Shown piece by piece: positions 30,183-50,353 of a stretch of DNA of 63,233 nt. The DNA lies in assembly GCA_002435145.1 (NCBI GenBank), contig DJLT01000092.1, positions 4,541 to 67,773 of the forward strand. Reading direction: 5' to 3'. The DNA is from Neptuniibacter sp. UBA6509. GTDB taxonomy: Bacteria > Pseudomonadota > Gammaproteobacteria > Pseudomonadales > Balneatricaceae. The notes under the pieces are model-generated. The model ran no database searches. It was not told the origin of the DNA and saw only the letters and a program-made list of their open reading frames with translations. The translations under genes were made by a program, and so were the position numbers. Each line of letters opens with the position of its first letter. Position 1 is the stretch's first letter.

Positions 30183-30941
30183 ATGAAATCTACTAATAAC
30201 CTCTCCAATTCAGTGAAAAACGCTCCCCGCCATATTGCAATTATTATGGACGGTAATAACCGCTGGGCAAAAGAGCGCCATCTGCCTGGGCTCGCGGGTC
30301 ACAAGGCTGGCGTCGATTGTGTTCGTTCCACGATTGAGGGCTGTATCGAATCGGGTGTCGAGGTTCTGACTCTTTTTGCCTTTAGTTCTGAAAACTGGAA
30401 ACGTCCCCCGTTGGAAGTTCGTGGGTTGATGGAGTTGTTTAAGCTGGCTTTAGATCGTGAGTCTAAGAAGCTTCTGAAAAACAATATTCGCTTACGCGTT
30501 ATTGGTGATAAAACCGCATTTAGTAGTTCATTGCAGAAAAAGATTGAAAAAGTTGAAACTATGACGGCCGAATGTACAGGCCTGCAGCTTAATGTGGCCG
30601 CCAATTATGGTGGGCGATGGGACATAGTTTCAGCGGCGAAGAGTATAGCTGAGCGCTGTGTAAATAATGAATTATCAGTTAATGATATTACTGAAGAGCT
30701 GTTTTCATCGGATGTGTCATTAGCCGAACTACCTGAAGCTGATTTGTGTATACGTACAGGCGGTGAAAAGCGTATTAGTAATTTCTTGATATGGCAGTTC
30801 GCTTACACCGAATTGTACTTCTCTGATGCTTATTGGCCAGATTTTGATAAAACGCATTTGCTGACAGCTATCCATGATTTTAGCAGTCGCCAGCGTCGAT
30901 TCGGGCGAACAAGTGAGCAAGTTGAGGCTGGAAATGCTTAA
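30183..30941 (+). CDS. uppS: Undecaprenyl diphosphate synthase
   Basis: cis-prenyltransferase that adds eight isopentenyl units to farnesyl diphosphate, making the lipid carrier for peptidoglycan and O-antigen. 252 residues from ATG 30183. Catalytic D23 in IIMDGNNRWAK, the FAFSSENW motif and the C-terminal DLCIRTGGEKRISNFL are intact. Its stop lies inside cdsA. It consumes isopentenyl diphosphate, so the missing MEP genes nearby must be compensated for elsewhere in the genome. Confidence 0.97.
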   Translation: MKSTNNLSNSVKNAPRHIAIIMDGNNRWAKERHLPGLAGHKAGVDCVRSTIEGCIESGVEVLTLFAFSSENWKRPPLEVRGLMELFKLALDRESKKLLKNNIRLRVIGDKTAFSSSLQKKIEKVETMTAECTGLQLNVAANYGGRWDIVSAAKSIAERCVNNELSVNDITEELFSSDVSLAELPEADLCIRTGGEKRISNFLIWQFAYTELYFSDAYWPDFDKTHLLTAIHDFSSRQRRFGRTSEQVEAGNA

Positions 30942-31746
30942 GCAGCGATTGATTACAGCAGCTATTTTGGCTCCTTTGGCGCTGTTGGGAGTTTTTGGGC
31001 TTCCCTTCTCTGGTTTCGTGTATTTGATGGATGCTGTCATTCTTGTGGCTGCCTGGGAGTGGGCAAATCTATCTGGTTATCAATCCACCAAAGAACGCTG
31101 GGCTTATGTTGTGGTTGCTGCGGTGCTGGTAGCGTTAGCGCATTACTATCTACCGAGTATTTCAAGTAATATAGTTCTACAGTTTGCCGTTTTATTTTGG
31201 TGCTTTGCTCTTTATGCAGTCATTAGGTATCCAGCGATATCTGGATGGGGAAGTCGTTTTGCTCGGGCGTTAATTGGATTTGTAGTTTTGCTTCCATGCT
31301 GGTTTGCATTTGTCAGTATGAAGGCAGTCGATGGCGGTGATTTGTTGATACTGCTGTTATTTCTTTTGGTTTGGGGTGCTGATGTCGGGGCTTACTTTAC
31401 GGGTAAGCGTTTTGGGCGTACAAAATTGGCTCCAGATGTTAGTCCAGGGAAAACTCGAGAAGGTTTGTATGGCGGGCTATTTGCGTGCCTGCTTATTGCT
31501 GTGTCATATGCGCTCATTCTAGGCTATGAATTATCCCAGTTGATTCTATTGGCGGTTCTGGCATTTATAACCGGCTTAATATCGGTGTTAGGTGACTTGT
31601 TTGAGAGTATGTTGAAGCGCCATCGAGGCATTAAGGATAGTAGTCAGCTGTTACCGGGGCATGGCGGAGTCCTCGATCGTATCGATAGCTTAACGGCAGC
31701 TGCACCTTTATTTGTATTGGGTATGCAGTTCATGGTGCTTGCTTAG
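30934..31746 (+). CDS. cdsA: Phosphatidate cytidylyltransferase
   Basis: Makes CDP-diacylglycerol for phospholipid synthesis. Polytopic membrane protein of 270 residues from ATG 30934 with GAGG upstream; it overlaps uppS by 8 bases. The C-terminal CDS signature runs through SVLGDLFESMLKRHRGIKDSSQLLPGHGGVLDRIDS. In most gammaproteobacteria the next gene is dxr; here the stop is followed after one base by rseP. Confidence 0.97.
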   Translation: MLKQRLITAAILAPLALLGVFGLPFSGFVYLMDAVILVAAWEWANLSGYQSTKERWAYVVVAAVLVALAHYYLPSISSNIVLQFAVLFWCFALYAVIRYPAISGWGSRFARALIGFVVLLPCWFAFVSMKAVDGGDLLILLLFLLVWGADVGAYFTGKRFGRTKLAPDVSPGKTREGLYGGLFACLLIAVSYALILGYELSQLILLAVLAFITGLISVLGDLFESMLKRHRGIKDSSQLLPGHGGVLDRIDSLTAAAPLFVLGMQFMVLA

Positions 31747-31747
31747 T

Positions 31748-33109
31748 ATGGCTTTGGATCTATTACATACCATAGCTGTCACTATATTGACCTTAGGTAT
31801 TTTGGTAACAATCCATGAGTGGGGTCATTTCTATATTGCTCGGCTTTGCGGGGTAAAGGTTCTACGTTTTTCAGTGGGATTCGGTAAGGCCTTGTGCTCG
31901 TGGAAAGATCGTAAGGGTACTGAATATGCTATAGCTGCAATTCCATTGGGCGGCTATGTGAAAATGTTGGATGAGCGTGAAGCGGATGTTCCAGTTCAGC
32001 AGTTAGATCAGGCGTTTAATCGTAAGCCGGTGCTGCAGCGTATGGCTATTGTTGTAGCAGGCCCTGCCGTTAATCTTATATTCGCAGTTTTTGCTTATTG
32101 GTTTATGTATGTCTCAGGGGTTTCGACTGTTGCTCCGATTGTAGGCTCTGTTGCTTCGGGCTCTGTTGCTGCTGAAGCTCGACTTCCCCAAGGGTTCGAG
32201 GTCCTTGCGGTTGATGGTGAGCAGACGCTGACATGGGATGAAGTTAATCTAAGACTAGCCGGTCGTGTTGGTGAGAGTGGTCAGTTAACTTTGCGGGTGA
32301 AGGAAATGGATGCTTCCTTAGCAAAAGATTACGTAGTTTTCTTGCAGAACTGGAATGTAGATGTTGATAAGGAATCTCCAGTATCTGCATTGGGCCTAGT
32401 ACCTTGGCGTCCTGCTGTCCCCGCAGTTATAGGGCGTTTAGTGGAGGGGGGGAGTGCTGAACTGTCGGGTATGATGCTTCAGGATGAAGTAATTACGGCT
32501 AACCAGCAGCCATTAGGCAATTGGTATGCATTTGTTGAATTGGTAAGAGCTAATCCTGGTACTCTCTTACAGCTTGAAGTTCTTCGTAATGGCGGCGTTG
32601 TAAGTATTGATATTACCCCCGAGGTAAAAGTTGATAAAACGGGTGTCAGTTATGGTTACATTGGCGCCGCTGCAAGTTCGGTAGCATGGCCTGAAGAGTA
32701 TAAGCGGACGCTTGAATACGGTTTGCTTTCAGGTATTGAAAGGGCGTTTAGTAAAACTTTTCAAATGATATCGCTAACCCTTGATTCCATCTGGAAGATG
32801 ATTGAAGGGGTTATCTCAGTAAAAAACTTGAGTGGTCCTATAACCATTGCTAAAGTGGCGAGTGACTCTGCCGCTTCCGGTTTAGAATCCTATATTAGCT
32901 TTTTGGCTTATCTTAGTATCAGCTTGGGAATTTTGAATTTACTGCCTATACCTGTTTTAGATGGCGGGCATCTACTTTATTATACGATAGAGTTGATAAC
33001 ACGTAAGCCGGTAAGTGAACGTGTGCAAGTGTTAGGCTTGAAATTAGGTATGGCAATGCTGCTGACATTGATGTTCGTAGCCATTTTTAACGACTTTATG
33101 CGGTTATGA
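31748..33109 (+). CDS. rseP: Site-2 protease RseP
   Basis: Inner-membrane zinc metalloprotease that cleaves the anti-sigma factor RseA and remnant signal peptides. 453 residues from ATG 31748. HEWGH (H23, E24, H27) lies in the first transmembrane helix, the third ligand in NLLPIPVLDGGHL near the C-terminus, and two PDZ domains fill the periplasmic part (about 115-310). It starts one base after cdsA, precisely where dxr would normally intervene, and is followed by bamA. Confidence 0.96.
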   Translation: MALDLLHTIAVTILTLGILVTIHEWGHFYIARLCGVKVLRFSVGFGKALCSWKDRKGTEYAIAAIPLGGYVKMLDEREADVPVQQLDQAFNRKPVLQRMAIVVAGPAVNLIFAVFAYWFMYVSGVSTVAPIVGSVASGSVAAEARLPQGFEVLAVDGEQTLTWDEVNLRLAGRVGESGQLTLRVKEMDASLAKDYVVFLQNWNVDVDKESPVSALGLVPWRPAVPAVIGRLVEGGSAELSGMMLQDEVITANQQPLGNWYAFVELVRANPGTLLQLEVLRNGGVVSIDITPEVKVDKTGVSYGYIGAAASSVAWPEEYKRTLEYGLLSGIERAFSKTFQMISLTLDSIWKMIEGVISVKNLSGPITIAKVASDSAASGLESYISFLAYLSISLGILNLLPIPVLDGGHLLYYTIELITRKPVSERVQVLGLKLGMAMLLTLMFVAIFNDFMRL

Positions 33110-33157
33110 TTAACAGTCATAACTGATTCAAACTTTATTATGGGTAAGAAGTACTTC

Positions 33158-35479
33158 ATGAAACGCGCCTTTGGACTTCTAGTAACACTTTTTTTCTGGG
33201 CTTCTCTTGTTCAGGCAAATACAGCAGCTTCATTCGTAGTCGAGGATATCCGTCTAGAGGGTTTGCAAAGGGTATCACCAGGTATTGTTTTCAGAAACTT
33301 CCCTGTCTCAGCAGGTGACTCTGTAGACACTTCTGAGCTGGCTAAAGCGTCGCGTAAGCTTTTTGAATCAGGTTATTTTGATGATATTCAATTATTACGT
33401 GAAGACTCAGTTTTAGTGCTTAAAATCCAGGAACGCCCGTCTGTAAGTTTGATTAAGTTGGAAGGGAATAAGGTTTTAGAATCTGAAGCGTTACTTGAAG
33501 GTTTGAAGCAAACAGGCCTTCAAGAAGGTGATGTGTTTAAGCGCTCAACGTTGGAGCAAATCAAACAAGATGTGGTTGCGGTTTATTCTTCACAGGGTCG
33601 ATATGGCGCTAGTGTAACTACAGATGTGGATTCATTGCCGGGAAATCGTGTTGCCCTAACAGTGAATATAAAAGAGGGGCGTGTTGCAACTATTCAGCAT
33701 ATAAATATTGTTGGTAATAGCGTTTACAGTGATGAAGAACTTAAAGAACTGTTTTCTTTGAAGTTGTCGAATTTCTGGTCTTTCTTTAGAAAGGATGATC
33801 GTTATGCACGTCAGAAACTGTCTGGGGATTTGGAACGCTTACGCTCTTATTACTTAGATAGCGGTTATGTAAATTTTTCCATTGATTCCACACAGGTCTC
33901 TATCACTCCAGATAAAAAGCATGTCTATATTACGGTCAATGTAACTGAGGGTGAGTTATATACTGTAAGAGGTTTTGATATTGCCGGTGAAATGGCAATA
34001 CCAGAAGCTGAACTCGAGTCCGCTGTGCGGGTAGAGACGGGACAAGTGTTTTCTAGGCGATTAGTCACGGAGTCTCAAGAGGCCTTAAGCAGTAAGTTGG
34101 GAGATGCTGGTTATATGTTTGCCAATGTTTCTCCTGCGCCTGAACTACATGATGATAATACTGTCACAGTTAAATTCTTTTTAGATCCAGGTAAGCGCAC
34201 TTATGTCAGACGTGTAAATATCAGAGGAAATACGCGTACGGCAGATGATGTGATACGTCAGCATCTTAAACAGATGGAGGCTGCGGTTGTTTCTAGTGAA
34301 TTAATTGAGCAGTCTAAAGTTAAATTGGAGAAAACGGGCTACTTTAAAACAGTTGATGTGGCTACATCCCCTGTCCCAGGTAGCACTGATCTGGTTGATA
34401 TCGAATATTCCGTTGTAGAGCAGCAATCAGGATCTTTCTCAGCAAGCCTCGGTTTTTCACAAACCTCAGGTATTATTTTAGGCTTTCAATTGAAGCAAGA
34501 TAACTTCTTGGGTACGGGTAAAAAAGTAGGTATTGGTATATCTAACAGTGATACTTTAACTGAGTATTCCTATAGTTTTGTTGATCCTTATTATACCGTT
34601 GATGGTGTGAGTCGTGGTTTTGATGTGTATTACCGTGAACGTGATTTTGATGAGGATAATACCAGTGCCTTTTCTACAGACGAATTCGGTGGTGGCGTAA
34701 ATTTTGGTTATCCAATTGATGACTATCAACGTTTGAATTTTGGTTTGAATGTTGAGCAGGTAACAATTAATACTAACTCCACTGAAACACCTGATGAAAT
34801 CCTTCAGTATTTATTAGATGAGGGTAATGACTATTTTAATATCAACCTTCGTGGCTCTTGGAGTTCAAACCATTTGAATAGGGGGTATTTCCCAACGAAA
34901 GGTTACTCCCAAAGTGCTTCGATTGAACTAGGCCTGCCGGGAAGTGATCTGAGTTATTATAAAGCTTTATATAATGTTAAGTGGTACAGCCCTATTGATG
35001 ATCAACGCACTTGGGTTATTTCTGCTAAAGGCCGTTTGGGTTATGGCGGTGAGCTAGGTGAGAATGAGTACCCATTTTATAAGCACTTCTTCGCTGGCGG
35101 CTTAAAAACTGTACGTGGTTATGAGCAGAACTCGCTAGGTCCACGCGACACAAAAGATGATCCGTTTGGTGGTGATGTTCTAGTTTCAGGTGGTTTGGAA
35201 TTTATTTTCCCAACACCATTTGTTAAAGATAAATCTTCATGGCGCACACTGTTATTCCTTGATGGAGGTAATGTCTTTGATACGAGTTGCTCATCAGTGT
35301 CTTTGGCATCTAACTGTAAGAGTGGTATAGAATTAGATGAATTGCGTTATTCTGCAGGCTTTGGTTTAAGTTGGTTAACACCTATTGGGCCGCTTTCTAT
35401 TGCGCTTGCAGCGCCGTTAAATGATAAAACAGGCGATGAAACTGAAGTCTTCCAGTTTGCATTGGGTCAAACTTTCTAA
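33158..35479 (+). CDS. bamA: Outer membrane protein assembly factor BamA
   Basis: Core of the BAM complex that folds beta-barrel proteins into the outer membrane. 773 residues from ATG 33158, chosen because AAGAAG precedes it; an ATG at 33140 has no such site. Signal peptide to about residue 21 (SLVQA), five POTRA domains (about 25-420) and a 16-stranded barrel with the conserved loop 6 motif VRGY (GGLKTVRGYEQ) and terminal Phe (FALGQTF). rseP-bamA-skp-lpxD is the standard order. Confidence 0.97.
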   Translation: MKRAFGLLVTLFFWASLVQANTAASFVVEDIRLEGLQRVSPGIVFRNFPVSAGDSVDTSELAKASRKLFESGYFDDIQLLREDSVLVLKIQERPSVSLIKLEGNKVLESEALLEGLKQTGLQEGDVFKRSTLEQIKQDVVAVYSSQGRYGASVTTDVDSLPGNRVALTVNIKEGRVATIQHINIVGNSVYSDEELKELFSLKLSNFWSFFRKDDRYARQKLSGDLERLRSYYLDSGYVNFSIDSTQVSITPDKKHVYITVNVTEGELYTVRGFDIAGEMAIPEAELESAVRVETGQVFSRRLVTESQEALSSKLGDAGYMFANVSPAPELHDDNTVTVKFFLDPGKRTYVRRVNIRGNTRTADDVIRQHLKQMEAAVVSSELIEQSKVKLEKTGYFKTVDVATSPVPGSTDLVDIEYSVVEQQSGSFSASLGFSQTSGIILGFQLKQDNFLGTGKKVGIGISNSDTLTEYSYSFVDPYYTVDGVSRGFDVYYRERDFDEDNTSAFSTDEFGGGVNFGYPIDDYQRLNFGLNVEQVTINTNSTETPDEILQYLLDEGNDYFNINLRGSWSSNHLNRGYFPTKGYSQSASIELGLPGSDLSYYKALYNVKWYSPIDDQRTWVISAKGRLGYGGELGENEYPFYKHFFAGGLKTVRGYEQNSLGPRDTKDDPFGGDVLVSGGLEFIFPTPFVKDKSSWRTLLFLDGGNVFDTSCSSVSLASNCKSGIELDELRYSAGFGLSWLTPIGPLSIALAAPLNDKTGDETEVFQFALGQTF

Positions 35480-35489
35480 GGGATAAGAT

Positions 35490-35987
35490 ATGAAATCTAA
35501 GATATTGTTAGGTGTTGCTTTAGCAATGAGTATCAGCATGTCTGCGCATGCTGAAAAAATAGCAGTTTTAGGTGTACAGCAGGCGCTGATGGCTTCAGCT
35601 GCTGCAGTAGAGTTCCGTAATAGTGTTAAAAGTGAATTTGCTAAAGAAGAGAAAAATCTTTTAGATTTGGAAAAGCAGGTCAAGGCTGCGAGAGATAAAG
35701 CTTCCAAAAATAAAGATTTAGCATCACCTGATGAATTGAAGAAAATGAAAATTCAATTCCAAAAGGTATTTTCTGAATACCAGCGAGCTGCTCAAGCTTT
35801 ACAGCAAAAACGTATGCAGAAAGAACAAGAGTTTATTCAGGAGATGAAGCCTCGTTTAGATAAAGTTATACGTGGCCTGATCGAGAAAGAAGGATATGAT
35901 GTTGTATTAGCTAAACAGGCAACGTTGTTCGCAAAAAAAGAACTAGATATCACGCCTCGCGTGGTTGAACTGTTGAATAAACAATAG
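35490..35987 (+). CDS. skp: Periplasmic chaperone Skp/OmpH
   Basis: Trimeric chaperone that carries unfolded outer-membrane proteins to BAM. 165 residues with signal peptide (…SISMSAHA). The mature protein starts [13 protein letters not shown] and continues into long charged alpha-helical arms (about 50-130) rich in Lys/Glu. AGGGATAAGAT precedes the ATG, 10 bases after bamA. Confidence 0.94.
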
Positions 35988-36001
35988 GCTTCTATAGGTT
36001 C

Positions 36002-37039
36002 ATGGGAAGTAAAAAATTCACATTAATCGAAATAGCGAACTTCTTGTCATCTGATTTTGTGGGTGATGGTGAGCAAACGCTAAGTTCGTTGGCTACTTTG
36101 CAGGCAGCGTCGGCAGGTGAGCTTTCATTTATAGCAAATAAAAGTTATCAGAAGTTTCTTGCGTCAACTGAGGCTTCGGCTGTTATTTTGTCTGCGGACG
36201 ATTTGGAACATTATTCAGGTAATGCGATAGTTTCAGATAATCCTTATTTGGCTTATGCCAAAGTAAGTCAGTTGTTTGCATATAATCCAGAACAAACATT
36301 AGGCATTTCACCATTAGCCAGTGTAGACCCAAGTACAAATGTTAGTTCAAACGCATCAATTGCTCCGGGTGTGTCTATTGCCGCAAATTGTGAAATTGGT
36401 GAACGTGTAATTATTGGTGAAAATACGGTGATAGGTGCAAACTGTGTTATTGCAGCGGGTACCGTTATTAAACCTAATGTGACGATTTATCACGGTGTTA
36501 CTATTGGTGAAAATTGCCTGATTCATAGTGCTGTTGTGCTTGGGTCGGATGGATTTGGTTTTGCTCCTGATGGTAAAGAGTGGGTGAAAATCGCTCAGTT
36601 AGGTGGTGTGTTGATTAAGGATAATGTTGAAATTGGGGCCGGTACGACAATTGATCGCGGGGCTCTTGATGATACCGTTATCGGCAAAGGTGCCATCTTA
36701 GATAATCTAATTCAAATTGCTCACAATGTTCATATTGGTGAAAATACTGCCATAGCGGGTTGTACTGCTATCGCTGGTAGTACTAAAGTTGGCGCGCATT
36801 GCACGATTGCCGGTGCTTGTGGAGTTGCAGGTCACGTAACTATTGCTGACGGCACACATATCACTGGTATGTCTATGATTACAAAATCGATTTCTGAGCC
36901 TGGAGTGTATTCGTCAGGCACAGGGATGCTTCCGCATAAAGCGTGGCAGAAAAATGTTATTCGTTTTCGACAGCTAGATGATATGGCTCGTCGTGTTAAG
37001 TCTATAGAAGATAAGATTACTGAGATTAAGGGTTCTTAA
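36002..37039 (+). CDS. lpxD: UDP-3-O-(3-hydroxyacyl)glucosamine N-acyltransferase
   Basis: Third step of lipid A synthesis: N-acylation of UDP-3-O-acylglucosamine from hydroxyacyl-ACP. 345 residues: an N-terminal uridine-binding domain, then a left-handed beta-helix of hexapeptide repeats (about 105-320). The catalytic histidine lies in [20 protein letters not shown] (about 243). Between skp and fabZ. Confidence 0.96.
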
Positions 37040-37042
37040 TAA

Positions 37043-37480
37043 ATGATGGATGTGAATGAAATTCGTGAATATCTTCCGCACCGCTATCCTTTCCTTTTGG
37101 TGGATAGAGTGCTGGAGTTAGAAAAAGGAGCTTCCATTGTTGCGATTAAGAACGTTACAGTAAATGAGCCTTTCTTTAATGGACACTTTCCAGATCACCC
37201 TGTGATGCCGGGTGTTTTAATTGTTGAAGCAATGGCTCAGGCTGCAGGAATCCTTGGTTTTAAAACCATGGATAAAAAACCTCAAGATGGGTCAATCTAC
37301 TATTTTGTTGGTGCTGATAAATTACGTTTTAAACGACCAGTAGTGCCTGGTGATCAGCTGAAGCTTGAAGCATCAATACTGTCAGAAAAGCGTGGGATCT
37401 GGAAATTTGAGGTGCGTGCATCTGTTGATGGTGATACCGTAAGTAGTGCAACCATTTTGTGTGCTGATAGAAAGGTTTAA
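37043..37480 (+). CDS. fabZ: 3-hydroxyacyl-ACP dehydratase FabZ
   Basis: Dehydrates 3-hydroxyacyl-ACP in fatty-acid elongation. 145 residues, hot-dog fold with [13 protein letters not shown], the catalytic His in [14 protein letters not shown] and the Glu in VEAMAQAAG. Placed inside the lpx cluster, it competes with LpxA for 3-hydroxyacyl-ACP. Confidence 0.97.
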
Positions 37481-37483
37481 ATC

Positions 37484-38254
37484 TTGATCGATTCTCGTGC
37501 TGTCATTGACCCGTCCGCTAAACTCGCAAGTGATGTAGTCGTTGGCCCGTGGACTCTTATTGGGCCTGATGTAGAGATTGGTGCGGGTACTGTCATTGGC
37601 CCGCATGTCGTTATCAAAGGCCCTACAGTAATCGGTGAGAATAATCGAATTTTTCAATTCGCTTCAGTAGGTGAGGATTGCCAGGACAAAAAGTATGCAG
37701 GTGAGCCGACCAAGCTGATTGTGGGTGATAATAACGTCATTCGTGAAGGTGTAACTATCCACAGGGGAACCGTCCAAGATGCGGGTGTGACCATTGTTGG
37801 TAGTGATAATCTTTTCATGGCTTATGCACATGTGGCGCATGATTGTGTTGTGGGTGATAACGTTATTATGGCGAATAACACCGCAATCGCAGGACATGTA
37901 CATATAGGTGATTGGACTATTTTAGGCGGTTTCACCGCTGTGCATCAGTTTTGCCGTATAGGTGCTCATGTTATGTGCGGTACAAGTACGGTCGTCCTCA
38001 AAGATATACCTGATTATATTATGGCGAATGGAAATACAGCGTCCCCGCATGGTATTAATGTAGAGGGGCTGAAGCGTCGCGGTTTTTCAGCTGATGCAAT
38101 CGCCAATATTCGTCGTGCATATAAAATTATCTACCGCCAGAAATTAACAGTGGCACAGGCAATAACTGCGCTCCAGGCTTTAGCTGCTACTTGTCCTGAA
38201 ATTGATTCCCTTATTCATTCTATAGAGTCATCTAACCGCGGCATTATACGCTAG
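37484..38254 (+). CDS. lpxA: UDP-N-acetylglucosamine O-acyltransferase
   Basis: First step of lipid A synthesis. 256 residues of left-handed beta-helix hexapeptide repeats with the catalytic histidine region MAYAHVAHDCVVGD (about 119-126) and a helical C-terminal domain. The start is TTG (37484), three bases after the fabZ stop; no ATG or GTG fits the family N-terminus MIDSRAVIDPSAK. Translation probably depends on coupling to fabZ. Confidence 0.96.
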   Translation: MIDSRAVIDPSAKLASDVVVGPWTLIGPDVEIGAGTVIGPHVVIKGPTVIGENNRIFQFASVGEDCQDKKYAGEPTKLIVGDNNVIREGVTIHRGTVQDAGVTIVGSDNLFMAYAHVAHDCVVGDNVIMANNTAIAGHVHIGDWTILGGFTAVHQFCRIGAHVMCGTSTVVLKDIPDYIMANGNTASPHGINVEGLKRRGFSADAIANIRRAYKIIYRQKLTVAQAITALQALAATCPEIDSLIHSIESSNRGIIR

Positions 38255-38262
38255 GAGACGCT

Positions 38263-39420
38263 ATGCCTAATCCACTACGCATAGGTATTGTTGCGGGTGA
38301 AGCGTCGGGTGATATCCTTGCTGCGGGTTTAATTCATTCTCTTAAGGCTAGATTCCCTGACCTCGTTTTTGAAGGGATTGGAGGGGAATTGATGATGGCT
38401 GAAGGTTTTCGGTCCCATTATCCTATGGAGCGCCTTTCCGTTATGGGACTCGTTGAAGTGCTTAGCCGTTTGCCTGAACTGCTAGGTATTAGAAAAAAAC
38501 TTACACAATCGTTTATCGATAATCCTCCTGATCTATTCATCGGCGTTGATGCACCTGATTTTACGCTTGCAATGGAGGGACGCTTAAAAAAAGCAGGTAT
38601 TCCCACTGTTCATTATGTAAGCCCTTCCGTGTGGGCTTGGAAACCTAAGCGTATCTTCAAGATTAAAGAAACGACCGATCTTGTTCTTGCTTTACTCCCT
38701 TTTGAGCCTGCATGCTATGAAGAAACTCAGCAGCGAATAGAGTTTGTAGGTCATCCACTAGCGGATCAAATAGCTGAAGATGAAAGCTTGTTTAGTGCTC
38801 GATCATTGTTTGGAATTGATGAGGGTGATCGTGTGCTGGCTATTCTCCCAGGAAGTCGGGGGAGTGAAGTTAAATACCTGGCAGAGCCTTTTTTAATGAC
38901 TGCCAGGTGGTTGCAGGAGCAGGAGCCTAAGCTTGTCTTTGTTTTGCCGGCCGCAAACCAAAAATTATATGACCTGTTGGAATCCTTAATTCAGGATAAG
39001 TTCTCAGATTTAAATATCTGTCTTGTTTTAAAGCAATCTAGACAGGTGCTTGCCGCATCAGATGCGGTGCTAATAGCCTCTGGAACGGCAACGTTGGAAG
39101 CGACATTGTTAAAAAAACCGATGGTGGTCGCTTATAAGATGGCTTCTATTACCGCTGCTATTTATTCTCGGATGCTTCGCTCTAAATATATTTCATTACC
39201 AAATCTGCTCGCTGATGAGATGCTTGTACCGGAAATTTTACAGGATGCAGTTAAACCTGAGGTTATGGGTGAGGCGATATTAAGAGCTTTAAATGATAAA
39301 AAGTATCGACAGTATCTTGAGCAGCGTTATGATGAGATTTATGCTCAAGTGCATCATAATGCTGATGAGCGCGCTGCTGATGCAATTGTTCACTTACTTC
39401 AAGATAAAGGTGTTATCTGA
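38263..39420 (+). CDS. lpxB: Lipid-A-disaccharide synthase
   Basis: Family 19 glycosyltransferase joining UDP-2,3-diacylglucosamine and lipid X. 385 residues with [15 protein letters not shown] at the N-terminus, [11 protein letters not shown] and the nucleotide-binding LPGSRGSEV and [11 protein letters not shown]. Ribosome binding site AGGAGACGCT. The stop overlaps the rnhB start by one base. Confidence 0.97.
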
Positions 39421-40013
39421 TGCAATTTGCTGCGCTTGATTCAAAACAAATCATAGCGGGTGTTGATGAGGTTGGTCGAGGCCCGTTGGTGGGAAATGTT
39501 GTTGCAGCAGCAGTTGTGCTTGATCCCAATAATCCTATTGAAGGTTTAGCTGATTCAAAAAAGCTCACAGAAAAGCGCCGTAATGCCTTAAATGTTGAGA
39601 TCCTTGAAAAGTCGTTATCTTGGTGTATCGCTTCTGCTACACCTGCTGAAATTGATCAGCTAAATATTCTCCATGCATCTATGTTGGCGATGCAAAGAGC
39701 TATTGAAGGGCTAAAGATAACGCCTGATTTTGCTTATATCGATGGCAATCGGTGCCCTGATTTGAAGTGTGCCAGCGAAGCGGTAGTGAAAGGCGATAGT
39801 AAGATAGCTGAGATTAGTGCCGCTTCAATCATAGCCAAAGTGGCCAGAGACCGTGAAATGAAAGATCTCGATCTGCTGCACCCCGAATATGGTTTTGCAA
39901 AACATAAAGGCTATCCTACAGCTTTGCATTTTGAAGCGTTAGCTAAGTATGGCCCTTTGCCTCAGCATCGACGTAGCTTTAAACCTGTAAAAAAGCTGCT
40001 TGAGCAGTCCTAA
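39420..40013 (+). CDS. rnhB: Ribonuclease HII
   Basis: Cleaves RNA in RNA-DNA hybrids and removes misincorporated ribonucleotides. 197 residues. The catalytic acidic residues are D16-E17 in [12 protein letters not shown], plus the Asp of YIDGNRCP and that of VARDREM. Standard position between lpxB and dnaE; its start shares one base with the lpxB stop (TGATG). Confidence 0.96.
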
Positions 40014-40039
40014 TTTAATCAATATTTTGATCGAGTCCT

Positions 40040-43000
40040 ATGTCTGATCCACAGTTTGTCCATCTTCGTGTACACACAGAATTTTCGTTAGTTGATGGGT
40101 TAGTTCGCGTTAAAGAACTTGTTGCCGCAGCAAAGGCTAATAATATGCCTGCTGTTGCAATGACCGATCAAACTAACTTTTTTGCTCTGATAAAGTTCTA
40201 TAAAGCGGCTACAGCGAACGGTATTAAGCCGATCTGCGGAGCTGATCTTTGGCTGGAAAACCCAGAGGAGCCAGGCGGCGATCCTTATCGGTTAACCTTA
40301 ATAGTTCGTAATGCCGAAGGTTATTTGAACTTAATGGAGCTCATTTCGCAGGCTTACTTTGAAGGTCAGAATATCATTCATGATATGGCTTTGGTTAAGC
40401 GAGAGTGGGTAGCCGAAAAGTCTGCTGGACTGATTGCGCTTTCGGGGGCGAAAAAAGGCGAAATTGGGCATGCAATCTTATCTGAAAATGAGCAGGCTGG
40501 TAGTCTTTTAGAGTATTGGATGGGGGTTTTCCCTAATGCATTTTATTTGGAAGTGCAGCGTACAGGGCGTGCTGGTGATGAGCAGGTTGTGCATGGTTCT
40601 GTTGCGTTAGCTAAACAATACAACTGTCCCGTTGTGGCAACAAACGACGTTATGTTTGTAAGTGCTGATGATTTTGAAGCGCACGAAGTCAGGGTCTGTA
40701 TTAACCAAGGTCGTGCTTTTGAGGATCCTACACGCCCTAAAGATTACAGCGAAGAACAATACTTCCGATCTCAAGAAGAGATGGTCGAGCTCTTCAGTGA
40801 TATACCCTCGGCAGTCAGTAATAGTGTGGAGATTGCTAAACGCTGCAATATTGATATTGAAATAGGAACCTATTACTTACCGAAATACCCTATCCCTGAA
40901 GGGATGTTGATGGATGACTATTTCCGCAAAGTGTCATATGACGGATTAGAAGAAAGATTGGCGATTCTTCTTGATAAAGATGATGCGGAATATGAAGCAA
41001 AGCGTCAGGAGTATATAGACCGTTTAGAGTTTGAGTTAGATATCATTATTCAAATGGGTTTCCCCGGTTATTTCCTTATCGTAATGGACTTCATTATGTG
41101 GGGTAAAGAAAACGGCGTACCGGTTGGGCCGGGGCGTGGTTCAGGTGCCGGCTCTTTGGTCGCTTATGTACAGAAAATTACCGATCTGGACCCATTGGAA
41201 TACGATCTTCTATTTGAGCGATTCTTAAACCCTGAACGTGTATCTATGCCGGATTTCGATATCGATTTCTGTATGGATAACCGTGATAAGGTTATTGATT
41301 ATGTAGCGCGCACTTACGGTCGAGATGCAGTATCCCAGATTGTTACATTCGGTACGATGGCGGCTAAAGCAGTTGTACGTGATGTTGCGCGAGTGCAGGG
41401 GAAACCGTTCGGGCTTGCTGATCGTCTATCAAAACTTATCCCCTTCGAAGTTGGTATTACGCTTAAAAAGGCAATGGAACAGGAGCCTTTATTGAGTGAT
41501 TTTGTGAACTCTAGCGCTGAGGCGCAAGAGATCATGGATATGGCGTATAAGCTTGAAGGTATTACCCGAAATGTAGGTAAGCATGCGGGTGGTGTAGTTA
41601 TCGCACCAACCAAGCTAACAGACTTTTCTGCTACCTACTGTGACGAGGAAGGTAAAGGGGTTGTTACTCAGTTTGATAAAGGTGATGTAGAAGAAGCGGG
41701 CTTGGTTAAGTTCGACTTCTTGGGTTTGCGTACCTTAACAATTATCGATTGGGCGCTTAAGACTGTTAATCGAGTGAGAGCAAAAAATAATGAAGAGCCG
41801 CTTGATATAGCATTAATTGATCTAGAGGATCGTAAAACATTTGATCTTCTACAGTCCGCGGAAACTACAGCTGTTTTCCAGCTGGAATCCAGCGGTATGA
41901 AAGACCTTGTTCGTCGATTGCTGCCCTCTCGTTTTGAGGATATTGTCGCGCTTGTAGCATTGTTCCGTCCGGGGCCTCTGCAATCCGGAATGGTAGATGA
42001 CTTTATTAACCGTAAGCACGGCCGTGCTGAAATGGCATGGCCGCATTCAGATTATCAGTTAGATAGTTTGCAGCCTGTATTGGAGCCAACCTACGGTATC
42101 ATCTTGTATCAAGAGCAGGTTATGCAGATTGCTCAGGTTATGGCGGGCTATACCTTAGGTGGTGCAGATATGCTCCGCCGAGCAATGGGTAAGAAAAAAC
42201 CTGAAGAGATGGCCAAGCAGCGGGCATCCTTTTTGGAAGGGTCTGAAGGTAATGGGATCGATCGGGATTTGGCAGGAAATATCTTCGATCTGGTTGAAAA
42301 ATTTGCAGGTTATGGTTTTAACAAATCTCACTCTGCAGCTTACGCGTTAGTTTCTTATCAGACCGCTTGGCTAAAAACACATTATCCTGCTCCCTTTATG
42401 GCTGCGGTGCTTTCTTCGGATATGCAAAACACGGATAAAGTCGTGATTTTCGTTGAAGAGTGCCGGCAGATGAAAATCCCACCGACGCTACCCGATGTTA
42501 ATAGCGGCGATTTTCTTTTTACCGTCAATGATGAAGGCGAGATCGTATATGGCTTGGGTGCGATTAAAGGGGTGGGTGAAGGTCCGATTGAAGCGATTGT
42601 TGAAGCGCGCTCATCCGGAGAAGAGTTTAAAGATATCTTCGATTTCTGTGAGCGGGTAGGCGCTAAAAAGTTAAACAAAAGAGTGCTTGAAGCGCTTGTG
42701 CGTTCAGGGGCTTTGGATAAACTTGGCGCTGAACGTGCCGTGCTTTGGAAGGCGATCCCTGATGCACTTCAAGCGGCAGATCAATCGGCTAAAAACCAAG
42801 ATGCAGGCATGTTTGATATGTTTGGTGAGGTTGAGGCTGAGTCAGGTCGCTGCCCTTACGAGGATTATAAAGGGATACGCCCTTGGACTGACAAAGAGCG
42901 TCTTACAGGTGAAAGAGATACATTAGGTTTATATCTGACAGGTCACCCTATCGATGAATATGAATCTGAATTAAAGCATTTCATTAGTAAACGTATCGTT

Positions 43001-43531
43001 GAATTACAGCCTGCTCGTGGTCAGATGCAGAAAATGGCTGGGTTGGTTGTGGAAATTCGTTTAAAGAAAACGAAGAAAGGGGATAATCTCTGTTTTGTGA
43101 CCCTAGATGATCGTAGTGCTCGTATTGATGTGACATTGTTTGGCGATACCTATGATGATGTTAGAGAGATGATTCAGAAAGATACGGTGCTGATTGTTGA
43201 AGGTGAAGTCGCAGAAGATCATTTCTCGGGCGGTATGAAGGTGAGGGTTAGTAAAGTGCTTACTATTCCTCTAGCTCGGGCACAGTATGCAAGGGGTGTT
43301 CAAGTTGTTGCGGATGAAAGTCATTTTAAAGGGCGGAAACTAAAAGAGTTTGAAGGGCTTCTCAATAATTATAAGTTGGGAGGGGCTCTGCCGATAAAAG
43401 TTAAATACCAAAGAGAAGATGCTGAGGCCATTTTGACCTTAGGGGATGACTGGCTTGTGCAGGCTAATGATGAGTTATTGATCGATTTAATGGACCGTTT
43501 TGGTCATGATGCGGTCTCTTTGACGTACTAG
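40040..43531 (+). CDS. dnaE: DNA polymerase III alpha subunit
   Basis: Replicative polymerase of 1163 residues, normal length. N-terminal PHP domain (HLRVHTEFSLVDG), palm with catalytic aspartates in PDFDIDFCMDNRD, GPGRGSGAGSLVAY, the fingers, a tandem HhH domain, the beta-clamp-binding region and a C-terminal OB fold (VEIRLKKTKKGDNLCFVTLDD). The psi subunit of the same holoenzyme is proposed at 9634-10563. Confidence 0.98.
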   Translation: MSDPQFVHLRVHTEFSLVDGLVRVKELVAAAKANNMPAVAMTDQTNFFALIKFYKAATANGIKPICGADLWLENPEEPGGDPYRLTLIVRNAEGYLNLMELISQAYFEGQNIIHDMALVKREWVAEKSAGLIALSGAKKGEIGHAILSENEQAGSLLEYWMGVFPNAFYLEVQRTGRAGDEQVVHGSVALAKQYNCPVVATNDVMFVSADDFEAHEVRVCINQGRAFEDPTRPKDYSEEQYFRSQEEMVELFSDIPSAVSNSVEIAKRCNIDIEIGTYYLPKYPIPEGMLMDDYFRKVSYDGLEERLAILLDKDDAEYEAKRQEYIDRLEFELDIIIQMGFPGYFLIVMDFIMWGKENGVPVGPGRGSGAGSLVAYVQKITDLDPLEYDLLFERFLNPERVSMPDFDIDFCMDNRDKVIDYVARTYGRDAVSQIVTFGTMAAKAVVRDVARVQGKPFGLADRLSKLIPFEVGITLKKAMEQEPLLSDFVNSSAEAQEIMDMAYKLEGITRNVGKHAGGVVIAPTKLTDFSATYCDEEGKGVVTQFDKGDVEEAGLVKFDFLGLRTLTIIDWALKTVNRVRAKNNEEPLDIALIDLEDRKTFDLLQSAETTAVFQLESSGMKDLVRRLLPSRFEDIVALVALFRPGPLQSGMVDDFINRKHGRAEMAWPHSDYQLDSLQPVLEPTYGIILYQEQVMQIAQVMAGYTLGGADMLRRAMGKKKPEEMAKQRASFLEGSEGNGIDRDLAGNIFDLVEKFAGYGFNKSHSAAYALVSYQTAWLKTHYPAPFMAAVLSSDMQNTDKVVIFVEECRQMKIPPTLPDVNSGDFLFTVNDEGEIVYGLGAIKGVGEGPIEAIVEARSSGEEFKDIFDFCERVGAKKLNKRVLEALVRSGALDKLGAERAVLWKAIPDALQAADQSAKNQDAGMFDMFGEVEAESGRCPYEDYKGIRPWTDKERLTGERDTLGLYLTGHPIDEYESELKHFISKRIVELQPARGQMQKMAGLVVEIRLKKTKKGDNLCFVTLDDRSARIDVTLFGDTYDDVREMIQKDTVLIVEGEVAEDHFSGGMKVRVSKVLTIPLARAQYARGVQVVADESHFKGRKLKEFEGLLNNYKLGGALPIKVKYQREDAEAILTLGDDWLVQANDELLIDLMDRFGHDAVSLTY

Positions 43532-43598
43532 GACTGGTCCTTGGTGGCTCAAAAAGGTACACTTTGGGCAATTTTTCACTTAAGAATAGATGAGTCAT

Positions 43599-44561
43599 AT
43601 GAATCCGAACTATCTGGATTTTGAACAGCCGATCGCTGAGCTGCAGGCAAAAATTGAAGAGCTACGTCTAGTTGGAGATGATACAGCTGAATTAAATATC
43701 TCCGAAGAGATCTCGCGTCTGGAAGGTAAAAGCCGTTCCTTAACTGAATCTATATTTTCTGATCTATCTGCATGGCAGGTATCTCAGTTAGCGCGCCATC
43801 CTCAGCGTCCTTATACGCTGGATTACATTGAGTATATCTTTGATGAATTTGATGAAATCCACGGTGATCGTCATTTTGCTGATGATCAAGCAATCGTAGG
43901 TGGTGTCGCTCGTTTAGATGAGATGCCAGTTATGGTTATTGGTCATCAAAAAGGACGTGGTGTGCGTGAGCGTCAGCAGCGTAACTTCGGTATGCCTCGC
44001 CCTGAAGGATATCGCAAAGCGCTACGCATGATGGAAATGGCTGAACGTTTTAAGATGCCAATCATGACGTTTATCGATACGCCAGGTGCTTACCCTGGTA
44101 TTGATGCTGAAGAGCGTGGCCAATCAGAAGCGATCGCTTTCAATCTGGCAAAAATGTCGCAGTTGAAAACGCCAATTATCTCCACTGTTATCGGTGAAGG
44201 TGGTTCCGGTGGTGCCTTAGCTATTGGTGTATGTGATGAATTAATGATGATGAGTTATTCAACTTATTCCGTTATTTCACCTGAAGGTTGTGCTTCCATT
44301 CTATGGAAAAGTGCTGATCGTGCTGCTGATGCTGCAAAAGCGATGGGTATTACTTCTGATCGTTTACATCAATTAGGCTTGGTGGATCAGATCATCAGTG
44401 AGCCTCTTGGTGGTGCTCATCGTGATCCAGCACTTACCGCGGCTAATCTAAAGAGACATTTGCTTGAGGTTGTGGGCAAGCTAAATGACTTACCGATTGA
44501 TGAATTGCTTGAAAGGCGCTATCAGCGTTTGATGGCTTATGGTTTCGGCGGTGAAGAGTAA
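43599..44561 (+). CDS. accA: Acetyl-CoA carboxylase carboxyltransferase subunit alpha
   Basis: Carboxyltransferase alpha subunit that helps form malonyl-CoA. 320 residues from ATG 43599 ([16 protein letters not shown]), which matches the pseudomonad N-terminus; an ATG three codons earlier (43590) is also possible. The crotonase-like fold shows [27 protein letters not shown] and [12 protein letters not shown]. Its 3' end overlaps tilS by 23 bases. Confidence 0.96.
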
Positions 44562-45882
44562 CCCGGAAGGGGTTGCAGCTTTACAAAAATGTGAGCGCCA
44601 GTTTTGTTGTGCGCTCTCATCTTTTCTTTCAGAAAATCCGCATGTTAAACGTTGGGTTATTGCTCATAGCGGTGGTCTCGACTCTCAGCTGTTATTGCAT
44701 TTAGCGGCTAAAAGAATTCCCTCTACCTCCCTGTTAGTTCTACATATCAATCATCACTTGCAGGCCTCCTCTGGGCGGTGGGCTGAATTTTCCTTAACGC
44801 AATCACGTCAGTTATCTTTGCATCATCAATCAATAGATGTATATCCAGCAAGCCAGTCAGAAAACTCTGCGAGAGAAGCAAGGTATGCAGCGTTTGAAGA
44901 AGTGATTGAGTCTGGGGATTGTCTGTTAATGGGGCATCATGCGGATGATCAGGCTGAAACTGTGCTTTTTAGAATGCTGCGTGGTTCCGGGTTGGCAGGC
45001 ATGTCTGGAATTACCCCGAGTCGTACCCTCGGGCAAGGATATTTGTTGCGCCCTTTGTTGCAATTAAGCCGTCTTGATTTAGAGAGGGCGGTCAGTGAGT
45101 CAGGTATTGAATTTATTGATGATCCGAGCAATGTAGATGAGAATTATGATCGAAATTATCTGCGTCATCAAATAATACCCGTTCTGAAAAAACGTTGGCC
45201 TAATATGCTGGAACGCTGGGAAAAGAATGCCCAGCTTTTTTCTCAATCTAATCAGCTCTTAGAGAGTTATTTGGATGCAGATTTATCTGGTCTGGTTGAT
45301 GAGCAACGACTCTGTTTGGATATTGAAAGGCTCCTTCAGTTCGACGAGTTAAGAGGTTTTGCTCTTTTACGGCATTGGTTGTATAAAAAAACCAAAATGC
45401 GTGCCAATCAAAAGCAGCTCGAAACTATTTTTTCTGATGTTCTGAAGGCTCAATTAGATGCGAATCCTATTTATCGTATTGGCCAGTACGACCTTCGCCG
45501 CTTTCTCGGGCAGCTCTATATCGTTAAGCCCCGAGAGTTGGTTGGGGATGATTGTAAAAGTGAAGCACAGATATCTGGTGTAGGCGAGTATCGTTTACCA
45601 GGTGGATTGCTGACAGTTCGGAGCGCTTCTTTAGGAATAAAAGAGAGCGCGGGTCTAATGGTGAGATATAGGCAGGGGGGCGAGCGTTGTCGGCCTGCGG
45701 GTAAAAAGCACTCCATGTTGGTTAAAAAATTGTTGCAAGAGGCCGCGGTACCTACTTGGTTAAGAGAGCATTGGCCCTTGCTATATATGGGTGAAGAGTT
45801 GGTTGCTGTGCCTGGAATTTGCATTTGTGAAGGGTGGTATACAGAAAAGTCGGGATTTTCTCTTTTATGGCACCCATTTTAA
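44539..45882 (+). CDS. tilS: tRNA(Ile)-lysidine synthase
   Basis: Converts C34 of the minor tRNA-Ile to lysidine, changing it to AUA decoding. 447 residues. The ATP-pyrophosphatase PP-loop [26 protein letters not shown] and [16 protein letters not shown] are conserved, followed by the TilS C-terminal domains. The start is uncertain: ATG 44539 or GTG 44551, both inside accA. accA-tilS is a common pair. Confidence 0.95.
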
Positions 45883-45892
45883 TTGTCTGATT

Positions 45893-47595
<1,703 letters not shown>

Positions 47596-47621
47596 GACAA
47601 TATTTATGGAATGGGGGTTAA

Positions 47622-48953
<1,332 letters not shown>

Positions 48954-48982
48954 GCGTAGTCTGTTGATCAATAGTCTGATAT

Positions 48983-49010
48983 AAAAAGGGGGCATCTGCC
49001 CTCTTTTTTT
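48983..49010 (+). terminator. Terminator after eno
   Basis: AAAAGGGGGCA / TGCCCTCTTTTTTT imperfect GC stem with a two-base apex and T-run, 30 bases after eno. It lies 16 bases before ftsB, so ftsB depends on readthrough or a promoter inside this region. Confidence 0.8.
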
Positions 49011-49025
49011 GCGTATAGAATCTCT

Positions 49026-49313
49026 ATGTATCGTTGGTTAATTGCATTGCTGATCGTACTTTTCTTTGGACTGCAATATAGATTGTGGTTTGGGGAAAAT
49101 AGTGTGCGTGATATTTGGGATTTGGATGCGAAAATTGAGTTACAGAAAACAATTAACAAAGAACTCAGTCAACGAAATAGTGAGTTAGAAGCAGAGGTGC
49201 AGGATCTTAAAAAAGGTTATGCAGCTTTGGAAGAAAGAGCCCGAAGTGAGTTGGGTATGATTCGTAAAGGTGAGACCTTTTTTCAATTGGTTGAACCAGT
49301 AGATGAGAATTAA
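49026..49313 (+). CDS. ftsB: Cell division protein FtsB
   Basis: Small bitopic divisome protein that joins FtsL and FtsQ. 95 residues: short cytoplasmic N-terminus, one transmembrane helix (about 4-20, WLIALLIVLFFGLQY), then a periplasmic coiled coil with heptads (about 35-70) and the GAARSELG-like EERARSELGMI. In relatives it is followed by ispD-ispF; here truD starts 5 bases after its stop. Confidence 0.95.
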   Translation: MYRWLIALLIVLFFGLQYRLWFGENSVRDIWDLDAKIELQKTINKELSQRNSELEAEVQDLKKGYAALEERARSELGMIRKGETFFQLVEPVDEN

Positions 49314-49318
49314 GTAGC

Positions 49319-50353
49319 GTGACCAATCTTCCTATCGATTTTACATACCTGCATGACACCCCTAAATGTGAAGCGCTTATACGTTCATGCCCAGAAGACT
49401 TTCAAGTTATTGAACAATTAGGTTTTGAGCCAGAAGGGCAAGGTGAGCATGTTTTTCTATATATCCGTAAACGGGGTGAAAATACTGATTGGGTTGCTAG
49501 ACAGCTAGCTAATTTTGCCCAGATTAGTCCTCGTGATGTCAGTTATGCGGGTAAGAAGGATCGTCATGCTGTGACTGAACAGTGGTTTTGCGTTAAATTT
49601 CCGATTAAGAGAAATCTAAATTGGAAGCTCTTTGGTGGCGATAGTGTTGAGGTCTTGAAGGCGGTGCGTCATCCTCGAAAATTACGCTTAGGTACCTTAA
49701 AAGGGAATACGTTTAAGCTTCGATTACGTCAGGTTTCTGACATGGATGAATTGAAGGCACGTGTAGAGCTCGTATCAAAAACTGGAGTACCGAATTACTT
49801 TGGTGAACAACGCTTTGGACATGACTACGGGAATCTATATAAAGGGATCTCTCTTTTAAAAGGAGAGTTGCAAGAGAGGCAGAGAAACAAAAAGGGTATC
49901 TATATCTCTGCTGTACGCTCATGGTTGTTTAACCAATTGTTATCATCACGGATTAAGCTAGAGCTATGGAATGGGCTATTAGACGGTGATGCTTTGATGA
50001 TCTCAGGAAGCCAGAGCTGTTTTGTTGAAGAGCAGGCTGATAACGAGCTGCGGGAAAGATTTAGTTGTGGTGCTCTTACCTTGACGGGGCCTTTATGGGG
50101 GCGTGGGGATATGATGCCCACTGGGGTCGCTGAAAAGTGGGAGCGAGATCAGTTATCTGTTTGGTCTGATATTTCTGATCTATTAGAGAATGTAAGCTTA
50201 AAGCAGGAGCGCAGAGCGTTAAAGCTTCAACCTGAGGATTTAAGCGTGGAATCTATCAGTGATACGGAGTGCTGGCTTGAATTTGGCTTAACTTCAGGCT
50301 CGTTTGCTACAAGTGTACTTAGAGAGTTATGTATAACGTCTGTCCCAGAGTAA
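49319..50353 (+). CDS. truD: tRNA pseudouridine(13) synthase
   Basis: Makes pseudouridine 13 in tRNA-Glu. 344 residues with a GTG start. The catalytic Asp is in SYAGKKDRHAVTEQWF, with the N-terminal RSCPEDFQVIEQLGF, NYFGEQRFGHDYGN and a TRUD insertion domain. Located between ftsB and surE, the place usually occupied by ispD-ispF-truD. Confidence 0.95.
   Translation: MTNLPIDFTYLHDTPKCEALIRSCPEDFQVIEQLGFEPEGQGEHVFLYIRKRGENTDWVARQLANFAQISPRDVSYAGKKDRHAVTEQWFCVKFPIKRNLNWKLFGGDSVEVLKAVRHPRKLRLGTLKGNTFKLRLRQVSDMDELKARVELVSKTGVPNYFGEQRFGHDYGNLYKGISLLKGELQERQRNKKGIYISAVRSWLFNQLLSSRIKLELWNGLLDGDALMISGSQSCFVEEQADNELRERFSCGALTLTGPLWGRGDMMPTGVAEKWERDQLSVWSDISDLLENVSLKQERRALKLQPEDLSVESISDTECWLEFGLTSGSFATSVLRELCITSVPE

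Follow-up and report, generated by a model that had tools for sequence, protein, structure and literature searches.

A mevalonate operon probably supplies isoprenoids in a family of mostly marine gammaproteobacteria that appears to have lost the MEP pathway beyond a shortened Dxs

How does a bacterium that still uses isoprenoids obtain them when genes for making them have vanished from their usual places? This question is raised by a 63,233-nucleotide stretch of DNA (hereafter the window) from Neptuniibacter sp. UBA6509 (assembly GCA_002435145.1, contig DJLT01000092.1, positions 4,541 to 67,773). A first-pass annotation of its sequence held that dxr, ispD and ispF, three genes of the methylerythritol phosphate (MEP) pathway, are missing from two separate operons while genes for isoprenoid-using enzymes remain, and predicted replacement of the pathway, perhaps by mevalonate enzymes. 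The MEP pathway is the route usual in bacteria; that through mevalonate is familiar from animals and fungi. Our data suggest that the family to which this organism belongs very probably makes isopentenyl diphosphate (IPP) and dimethylallyl diphosphate (DMAPP) through the mevalonate pathway in its classical bacterial form, the genes for which share a single operon, and that it has lost the MEP pathway beyond the first enzyme, Dxs, whose gene would have been kept for vitamin synthesis.

The absence of dxr between cdsA and rseP, and of ispD-ispF between ftsB and truD, is confirmed. In relatives from the same order, dxr lies between cdsA and rseP (loci L042 and L043), ispF adjoins truD (L146 and L147) and ispD adjoins ispF (L147), each gene being confirmed by a protein model. 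In the window, cdsA and rseP are separated by 1 base, if rseP starts at its own ATG, and ftsB and truD by 5 bases. Since the flanking genes abut, there is no assembly gap at either site. When the loci of these relatives were compared with the window by tblastn, their flanking genes matched at 38-61% identity with order kept, and their dxr, ispF and ispD open reading frames (ORFs) gave only noise (E values of at least 0.8). The isoprenoid users uppS and miaB are indeed still present, both scoring above the cut-offs of their models (Table 1).

The genome of the window, a 3.88 Mb assembly in 134 contigs that is 91.47% complete, has no match to the models for Dxr (PF02670) or IspF (PF02542). The first-pass annotation expected ispE, ispG and ispH to be absent as well, and none of them was found in this genome. 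The GHMP kinase model PF00288, which would detect IspE, matches only three adjacent mevalonate genes on contig C125 and one further sequence at 13 bits, below the cut-off, which argues that the genome has no IspE; models for IspG (PF04551) and IspH (PF02401) have no match. The genome thus holds mevalonate genes and an incomplete MEP set, not the full MEP set without mevalonate genes that the annotation had named as evidence against its prediction. One MEP enzyme survives, a point that the annotation had not considered: Dxs, and with it the first step of the pathway, is retained (PF13292, 4.1e-90). Two other, weaker Dxs-like places were rejected, one being pyruvate dehydrogenase E1 alpha (contig C10, above cut-off) and the other resembling it (contig C35, below cut-off).

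The predicted replacement is supported by an operon on contig C125 (L006:9110-15261) that contains mvaA, fni, mvaS, two GHMP kinase genes (here kinA and kinB) and mvaD, in this order, with the ORFs as called either overlapping or no more than 15 bases apart. The mvaA product is a 3-hydroxy-3-methylglutaryl-CoA (HMG-CoA) reductase (HMGR; E 7.1e-87, with PF00368 above cut-off; its match to the NCBIfam NADPH HMGR model, 4.6e-84, falls under that model's own cut-off). HMG-CoA synthase is encoded by mvaS (TIGR01835, 528 bits, cut-off 360), a type 2 IPP isomerase by fni (TIGR02151, 375.5 bits, cut-off 281.3) and diphosphomevalonate decarboxylase by mvaD (TIGR01240, 292 bits, cut-off 171). We also considered an archaeal-type mevalonate route, which is unsupported: MvaD fits the diphosphomevalonate model and reaches only 117 bits against the phosphomevalonate decarboxylase model NF040704, below its cut-off of 475. 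We propose that these enzymes, with functions assigned by similarity, supply the cell with IPP and DMAPP. The G+C fraction of the operon is 0.433, and that of the window 0.434. Among the genes that the annotation had proposed to look for, hmgR, mvaS, mvk, mvaD and an isomerase (as fni) were found; for pmk the outcome is less clear, with two GHMP kinases present and neither at the cut-off of a phosphomevalonate kinase model.

To place the window in a wider setting, we sampled 96 genomes, 60 from its family (the window's included) and one each from 36 other families of the order. The family, which we take to be the Nitrincolaceae of GTDB, includes Neptuniibacter, Marinobacterium, Motiliproteus and others, mostly free-living marine species; NCBI places Neptuniibacter in Oceanospirillaceae. 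HMGR was found in 60/60 family genomes and in 4/36 other families. IspF showed the reverse distribution, 0/60 and 36/36. The Dxr model matched in 4/60 family genomes and in 35/36 other families; the four family matches (21-23 bits) are homoserine dehydrogenase (NF004976, 569-594 bits), leaving real Dxr at 0/60. What the annotation had read in one organism is therefore a family-wide state and not a single-organism oddity. Among the family's HMGR genes, one is split into two pieces (G019) and one has an in-frame stop (G036:C5).

The HMGRs of the four other families (G060, G062, G071 and G087) belong exclusively to a longer type and share 33-35% identity with that of the window's genome, and dxr is kept in those genomes. 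With no short-type HMGR among them, the 36 families seem to include neither Balneatrichaceae nor Endozoicomonadaceae. Gammaproteobacteria with mevalonate genes are not uncommon, as HMGR was found in 73 of 369 genomes of an even sample of the class (72 above cut-off). Besides the family genome with the in-frame stop, matches that may represent decaying genes or sequencing errors occur at G121:C3 (in pieces, one with a TAG) and G407:C38 (one in-frame stop). A second HMGR, of the longer type, stands beside the operon copy in three family genomes (G047:C34, L017; G021:C138, L018; G034:C17, L019). The named loci also include a symbiont, the metagenome-assembled genome of Osedax symbiont Rs2 (L154), possibly a member of the family.

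Why would dxs survive the loss of the rest of its pathway? Its product, 1-deoxy-D-xylulose 5-phosphate (DXP), is also consumed by PdxJ in vitamin B6 synthesis, and ThiG uses DXP to make thiamine. PdxJ is present in 60/60 family genomes, which makes vitamin B6 the most likely destination of DXP. We propose that dxs is kept because PdxJ needs DXP; most likely, DXP now serves vitamin B6 only, perhaps thiamine too, and not isoprenoids. Strong Dxs matches (at least 265 bits) occur in 57/60 family genomes. In the window's genome dxs follows xseB and a gene that we read as ispA, with a phosphatidylglycerophosphatase A-like ORF downstream on the opposite strand. The order xseB-ispA-dxs is the usual gammaproteobacterial setting of dxs, and ispA lies beside dxs in 48/50 loci (20 from the family, 30 from elsewhere).

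The retained Dxs is not an ordinary one. In the family, the best match to the Dxs_N model stops at model position 187-197, and a second piece, where listed, restarts at 215-233. In 34/36 other families the match spans positions 1 to 274, and in the remaining two it is fragmented. We compared 21 family sequences (that of the window's genome and 20 of the 56 others with strong matches) with those of 30 of the 36 other families. Between an NDMSIS motif and the conserved block that follows, 21/21 family sequences have 23-41 residues (36 in the window's genome), compared with 61-62 in 30/30 others. The lost or rewritten part contains seven columns (Y, P, E, E, K, G and P) that are invariant in all 30 others, along with further columns that are nearly so. 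Because these seven never vary in 30 families, the loop is under constraint in MEP-using relatives. Across the whole of Dxs, 211 columns are near-invariant in the other families, and the family keeps 169 of them.

This loop is known from structural work; papers identified by PMC numbers are cited here and below from excerpts. DXP synthase (DXPS) from P. aeruginosa and K. pneumoniae was crystallised with the loop swapped for glycines (PMC10504544). The closest solved structure to the Dxs of the window's genome is DXPS 8a29 (3.8e-234), presumably the P. aeruginosa enzyme described there. The crystallisation constructs 8a29 and 8a8y lack the same loop as the family's Dxs, after the NDMSIS motif; theirs is an engineered truncation with a glycine linker, whereas the family's is natural and present in 21/21 sampled sequences. 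The loop-truncated P. aeruginosa enzyme has kinetics comparable to the native one (PMC10504544), and E. coli DXPS without the loop has a similar Km and a 1.5-fold lower kcat (PMC13082120, a preprint). The loop may thus serve the isoprenoid duty of Dxs, through regulation or partner binding, rather than catalysis. We propose that Dxs, once freed from isoprenoid supply, lost most of the loop and has probably been less constrained since.

How well does mevalonate replacement with a vitamin-only Dxs stand up? Several observations weigh against it. Three family genomes, all drafts (G052, G056 and G058), have no strong Dxs match. IspE, IspG and IspH were each sought in the window's genome only, and the tblastn search that found no IspD at its usual place covered the window and not the rest of the genome. 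Neither kinA nor kinB reaches the cut-off of any NCBIfam phosphomevalonate kinase model. Relaxed constraint on Dxs is favoured by a comparison with IspA: Dxs identity exceeds IspA identity by a median of 15.9 points in the other families (28 sequences) and of 5.2 in the family (21 sequences). The two groups span different evolutionary depths, which makes this comparison indicative only. One might go further and suppose that the MEP genes merely seem to be missing from a draft that is about nine-tenths complete, the mevalonate operon being an extra pathway, much as the four other families with the longer HMGR keep dxr. We consider this extremely unlikely: the sequence runs unbroken through both loss sites, where the flanking genes abut, and relatives at 99-100% completeness, single-contig genomes included, also have no real Dxr or IspF. 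The division of labour between the two kinases is less certain. The pathway requires a mevalonate kinase and a phosphomevalonate kinase, and in the proposed scheme one tandem GHMP kinase would be the former and the other the latter. The best model for both is mevalonate kinase, and across sets of 48 and 49 homologues, too, the lowest E-values come from mevalonate kinase models. Our guess is that kinA is the mevalonate kinase and kinB the phosphomevalonate kinase. The kinB profile aligns nearly full-length to Lin0012 (6.5e-37), which we take to be the Listeria phosphomevalonate kinase, and to 1k47 (1e-13), a solved phosphomevalonate kinase presumably from S. pneumoniae; kinA aligns to them only partly (3.8e-21 and 4.5e-6). 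The kinA consensus also carries HGR-SGID, a motif that we associate with mevalonate kinases, although kinA of the window's genome reads SAID. With the roles swapped, the scores against mevalonate kinase model TIGR00549 would make better sense, as kinB exceeds the cut-off (165.7 against 163.05 bits) and kinA falls under it (138 bits), and kinB is nearer to archaeal mevalonate kinases. The alignments to Lin0012 and 1k47 and the kinA motif make this arrangement the less likely of the two, though a real possibility.

Alternatives also bear on the retained Dxs. Mevalonate users with partial MEP pathways have been reported (PMC13001223), and dxs might likewise be kept as the start of a partial branch whose product is a signal; such a branch, ending at methylerythritol cyclodiphosphate (MEcDP), has been proposed for Listeria. 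MEcDP requires Dxr and IspDEF, and the family has neither Dxr nor IspF; with DXP-using PdxJ in 60/60 family genomes, a signalling branch is very improbable. The link between loop loss and pathway loss is harder to judge. In the Dxs tree the family forms one side of a single branch (99% support in the SH-like approximate likelihood ratio test, SH-aLRT), so the loop loss counts as one event and not as repeated evidence. The loop might be dispensable anywhere and have been lost by chance in the family's ancestor, unconnected with the pathway. The activity of the loop-deleted P. aeruginosa and E. coli enzymes fits this account, as does the very low conservation ascribed to the loop in PMC10504544, which speaks against a general function; against it stand the retained length of the segment in 30/30 sampled families and the seven loop columns identical in all of them. 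Low conservation in general and high conservation within the order can both hold if the role of the loop is lineage-specific. We regard chance loss as a serious possibility, if slightly short of an even bet. A bolder proposal is that this flexible loop serves only the isoprenoid duty of Dxs, for example by mediating feedback by IPP and DMAPP or by docking later enzymes of the MEP pathway, and disappears once DXP is vitamin-only, and that one of the tandem kinases represents a type of phosphomevalonate kinase missed by current models. This combined proposal is quite plausible, though we would not yet call it probable. If it is true, the family is a natural experiment in which the parts of Dxs needed for catalysis are separated from those specific to the pathway, and the missed kinase type might also explain the phosphomevalonate kinase reported as absent from the Legionella species analysed in PMC13001223. 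Given tandem kinases in the operon type, the Legionella enzyme may be present and unrecognised.

Where did the operon come from? Comparison of the HMGR of the window's genome with those of 20 loci sampled in other orders of the class, Legionellales among them, gives 54-68% identity; kinA is present at 18/20 and kinB at 17/20 of these loci, some of which are cut by contig ends. An HMGR tree of 81 rows, built by a fast method and with support under 80 at 22 of its 78 inner branches, groups most loci from Neptuniibacter, Marinobacterium, Amphritea, Nitrincola and Neptunomonas together. Motiliproteus clusters instead with Endozoicomonadaceae, and sequences from Kiritimatiellota, Lentisphaerota and Actinomycetota are scattered among the others. 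Transfer of the operon between phyla is likely on this evidence, with no donor that can be named.

Operons of Legionellales and of a Coxiella-like endosymbiont resemble that of the window's genome in their short HMGR type and, where complete, in gene order, but many have no fni or mvaS at the locus. Further differences are genome size, with 18/20 of the other-order loci coming from genomes of at most 2.6 Mb compared with 3.88 Mb here, and the HMGR tree, in which the family and Legionellales form no joint clade (many branches being weak). The Coxiella-like endosymbiont CRt (L219) has two tandem HMGR matches (at about 7370 and 9998) upstream of the kinases. Seven loci from Balneatrichaceae, Endozoicomonadaceae, Salinibius, Thiomicrospira and Thiomicrorhabdus share the operon type, with HMGRs 64-79% identical to that of the window's genome; they differ in having no polB match after mvaD, although some end soon after mvaD.

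In our genome, polB (DNA polymerase II) follows mvaD (L006:15306-17657), and the operon is preceded on contig C125 by argG, a type I secretion permease, a LuxR-type regulator and tolC. Of 29 named loci assigned to Oceanospirillaceae by NCBI, 24 have a polB match downstream of the operon, and the remaining five end before or soon after the mvaD position; the 51 named loci from elsewhere, many of which are short, include only one with such a match. At the loci of Marinobacterium lutimaris (L165) and M. mangrovicola (L170), kinB and mvaD are about 5 kb apart; the two genes are close at the other Marinobacterium loci showing both.

Table 1 Features of the window at and around the sites of MEP gene loss.
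Feature	Position	Strand	Evidence and context
uppS, undecaprenyl diphosphate synthase (isoprenoid user)	30183..30941	+	TIGR00055 295 bits, cut-off 109.6; synteny with L042/L043; left of the dxr-loss site
cdsA, phosphatidate cytidylyltransferase	30934..31746	+	NF008635 1.2e-62, under the model's cut-off; synteny; precedes dxr in compared relatives
dxr-loss junction (cdsA stop, 1 base, rseP ATG)	31744..31750	+	no Dxr remnant (tblastn); no PF02670 in the genome
rseP, site-2 protease	31748..33109	+	TIGR00054 400.6 bits, cut-off 147.6; right of the dxr-loss site
ftsB	49026..49313	+	NF002058 121.7 bits, cut-off 101; left of the ispD-ispF-loss site
ispD-ispF-loss junction, 5 bases	49314..49318	+	no PF02542 in the genome
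truD	49319..50353	+	TIGR00094 206.5 bits, cut-off 172.2; right of the ispD-ispF-loss site
miaB, acts on isopentenylated tRNA (isoprenoid user)	682..2046	-	TIGR01574 615 bits, cut-off 355

Parts of this picture are already known: the mevalonate pathway itself, its substitution for the MEP pathway, and a Marinobacterium cluster. In 2017, the mevalonate cluster reported to match that of 'Ca. Liberibacter' most closely was the one in M. jannaschii, M. litorale and M. stanieri (PMC5291501). Marinobacterium is a genus within the family of the window; MEP loss, the family-wide pattern and Dxs are not treated in the excerpted parts of that paper. Listeria, Enterococcus and Streptococcus combine mevalonate isoprenoids with leftover MEP genes, as here, but the Listeria remnant extends to MEcDP (PMC13001223), whereas only Dxs was found here, with IspD sought in the window. 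Mevalonate genes have also been discussed as a signature of predators (PMC8560859, PMC5291501), and the excerpts of PMC8560859 describe them as absent from its own predator, a Thalassolituus relative. In open-access literature we found no report of mevalonate genes in Neptuniibacter and, among the matches listed, noticed none of a natural loop-less Dxs; Amphritea, Nitrincola and Neptunomonas were covered among the matches listed in the same literature. As far as searched, three points are new: the family-wide scope together with the loss of MEP genes, a Dxs that is kept but shortened, and a second kinase that goes unrecognised.

The missing dxr predicts that these species are resistant to fosmidomycin, as the first-pass annotation had anticipated, and they would also be expected to be sensitive to HMGR inhibitors. 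The tandem kinases suggest that standard models for pathway calling can overlook a phosphomevalonate kinase. Dxs is under study as a drug target, and its shortened form suggests a function for a loop that structural biologists have treated as dispensable and removed. For the family itself, the data point to an essential pathway exchanged whole, at family level, in ordinary marine gammaproteobacteria, with the sites of loss still legible.

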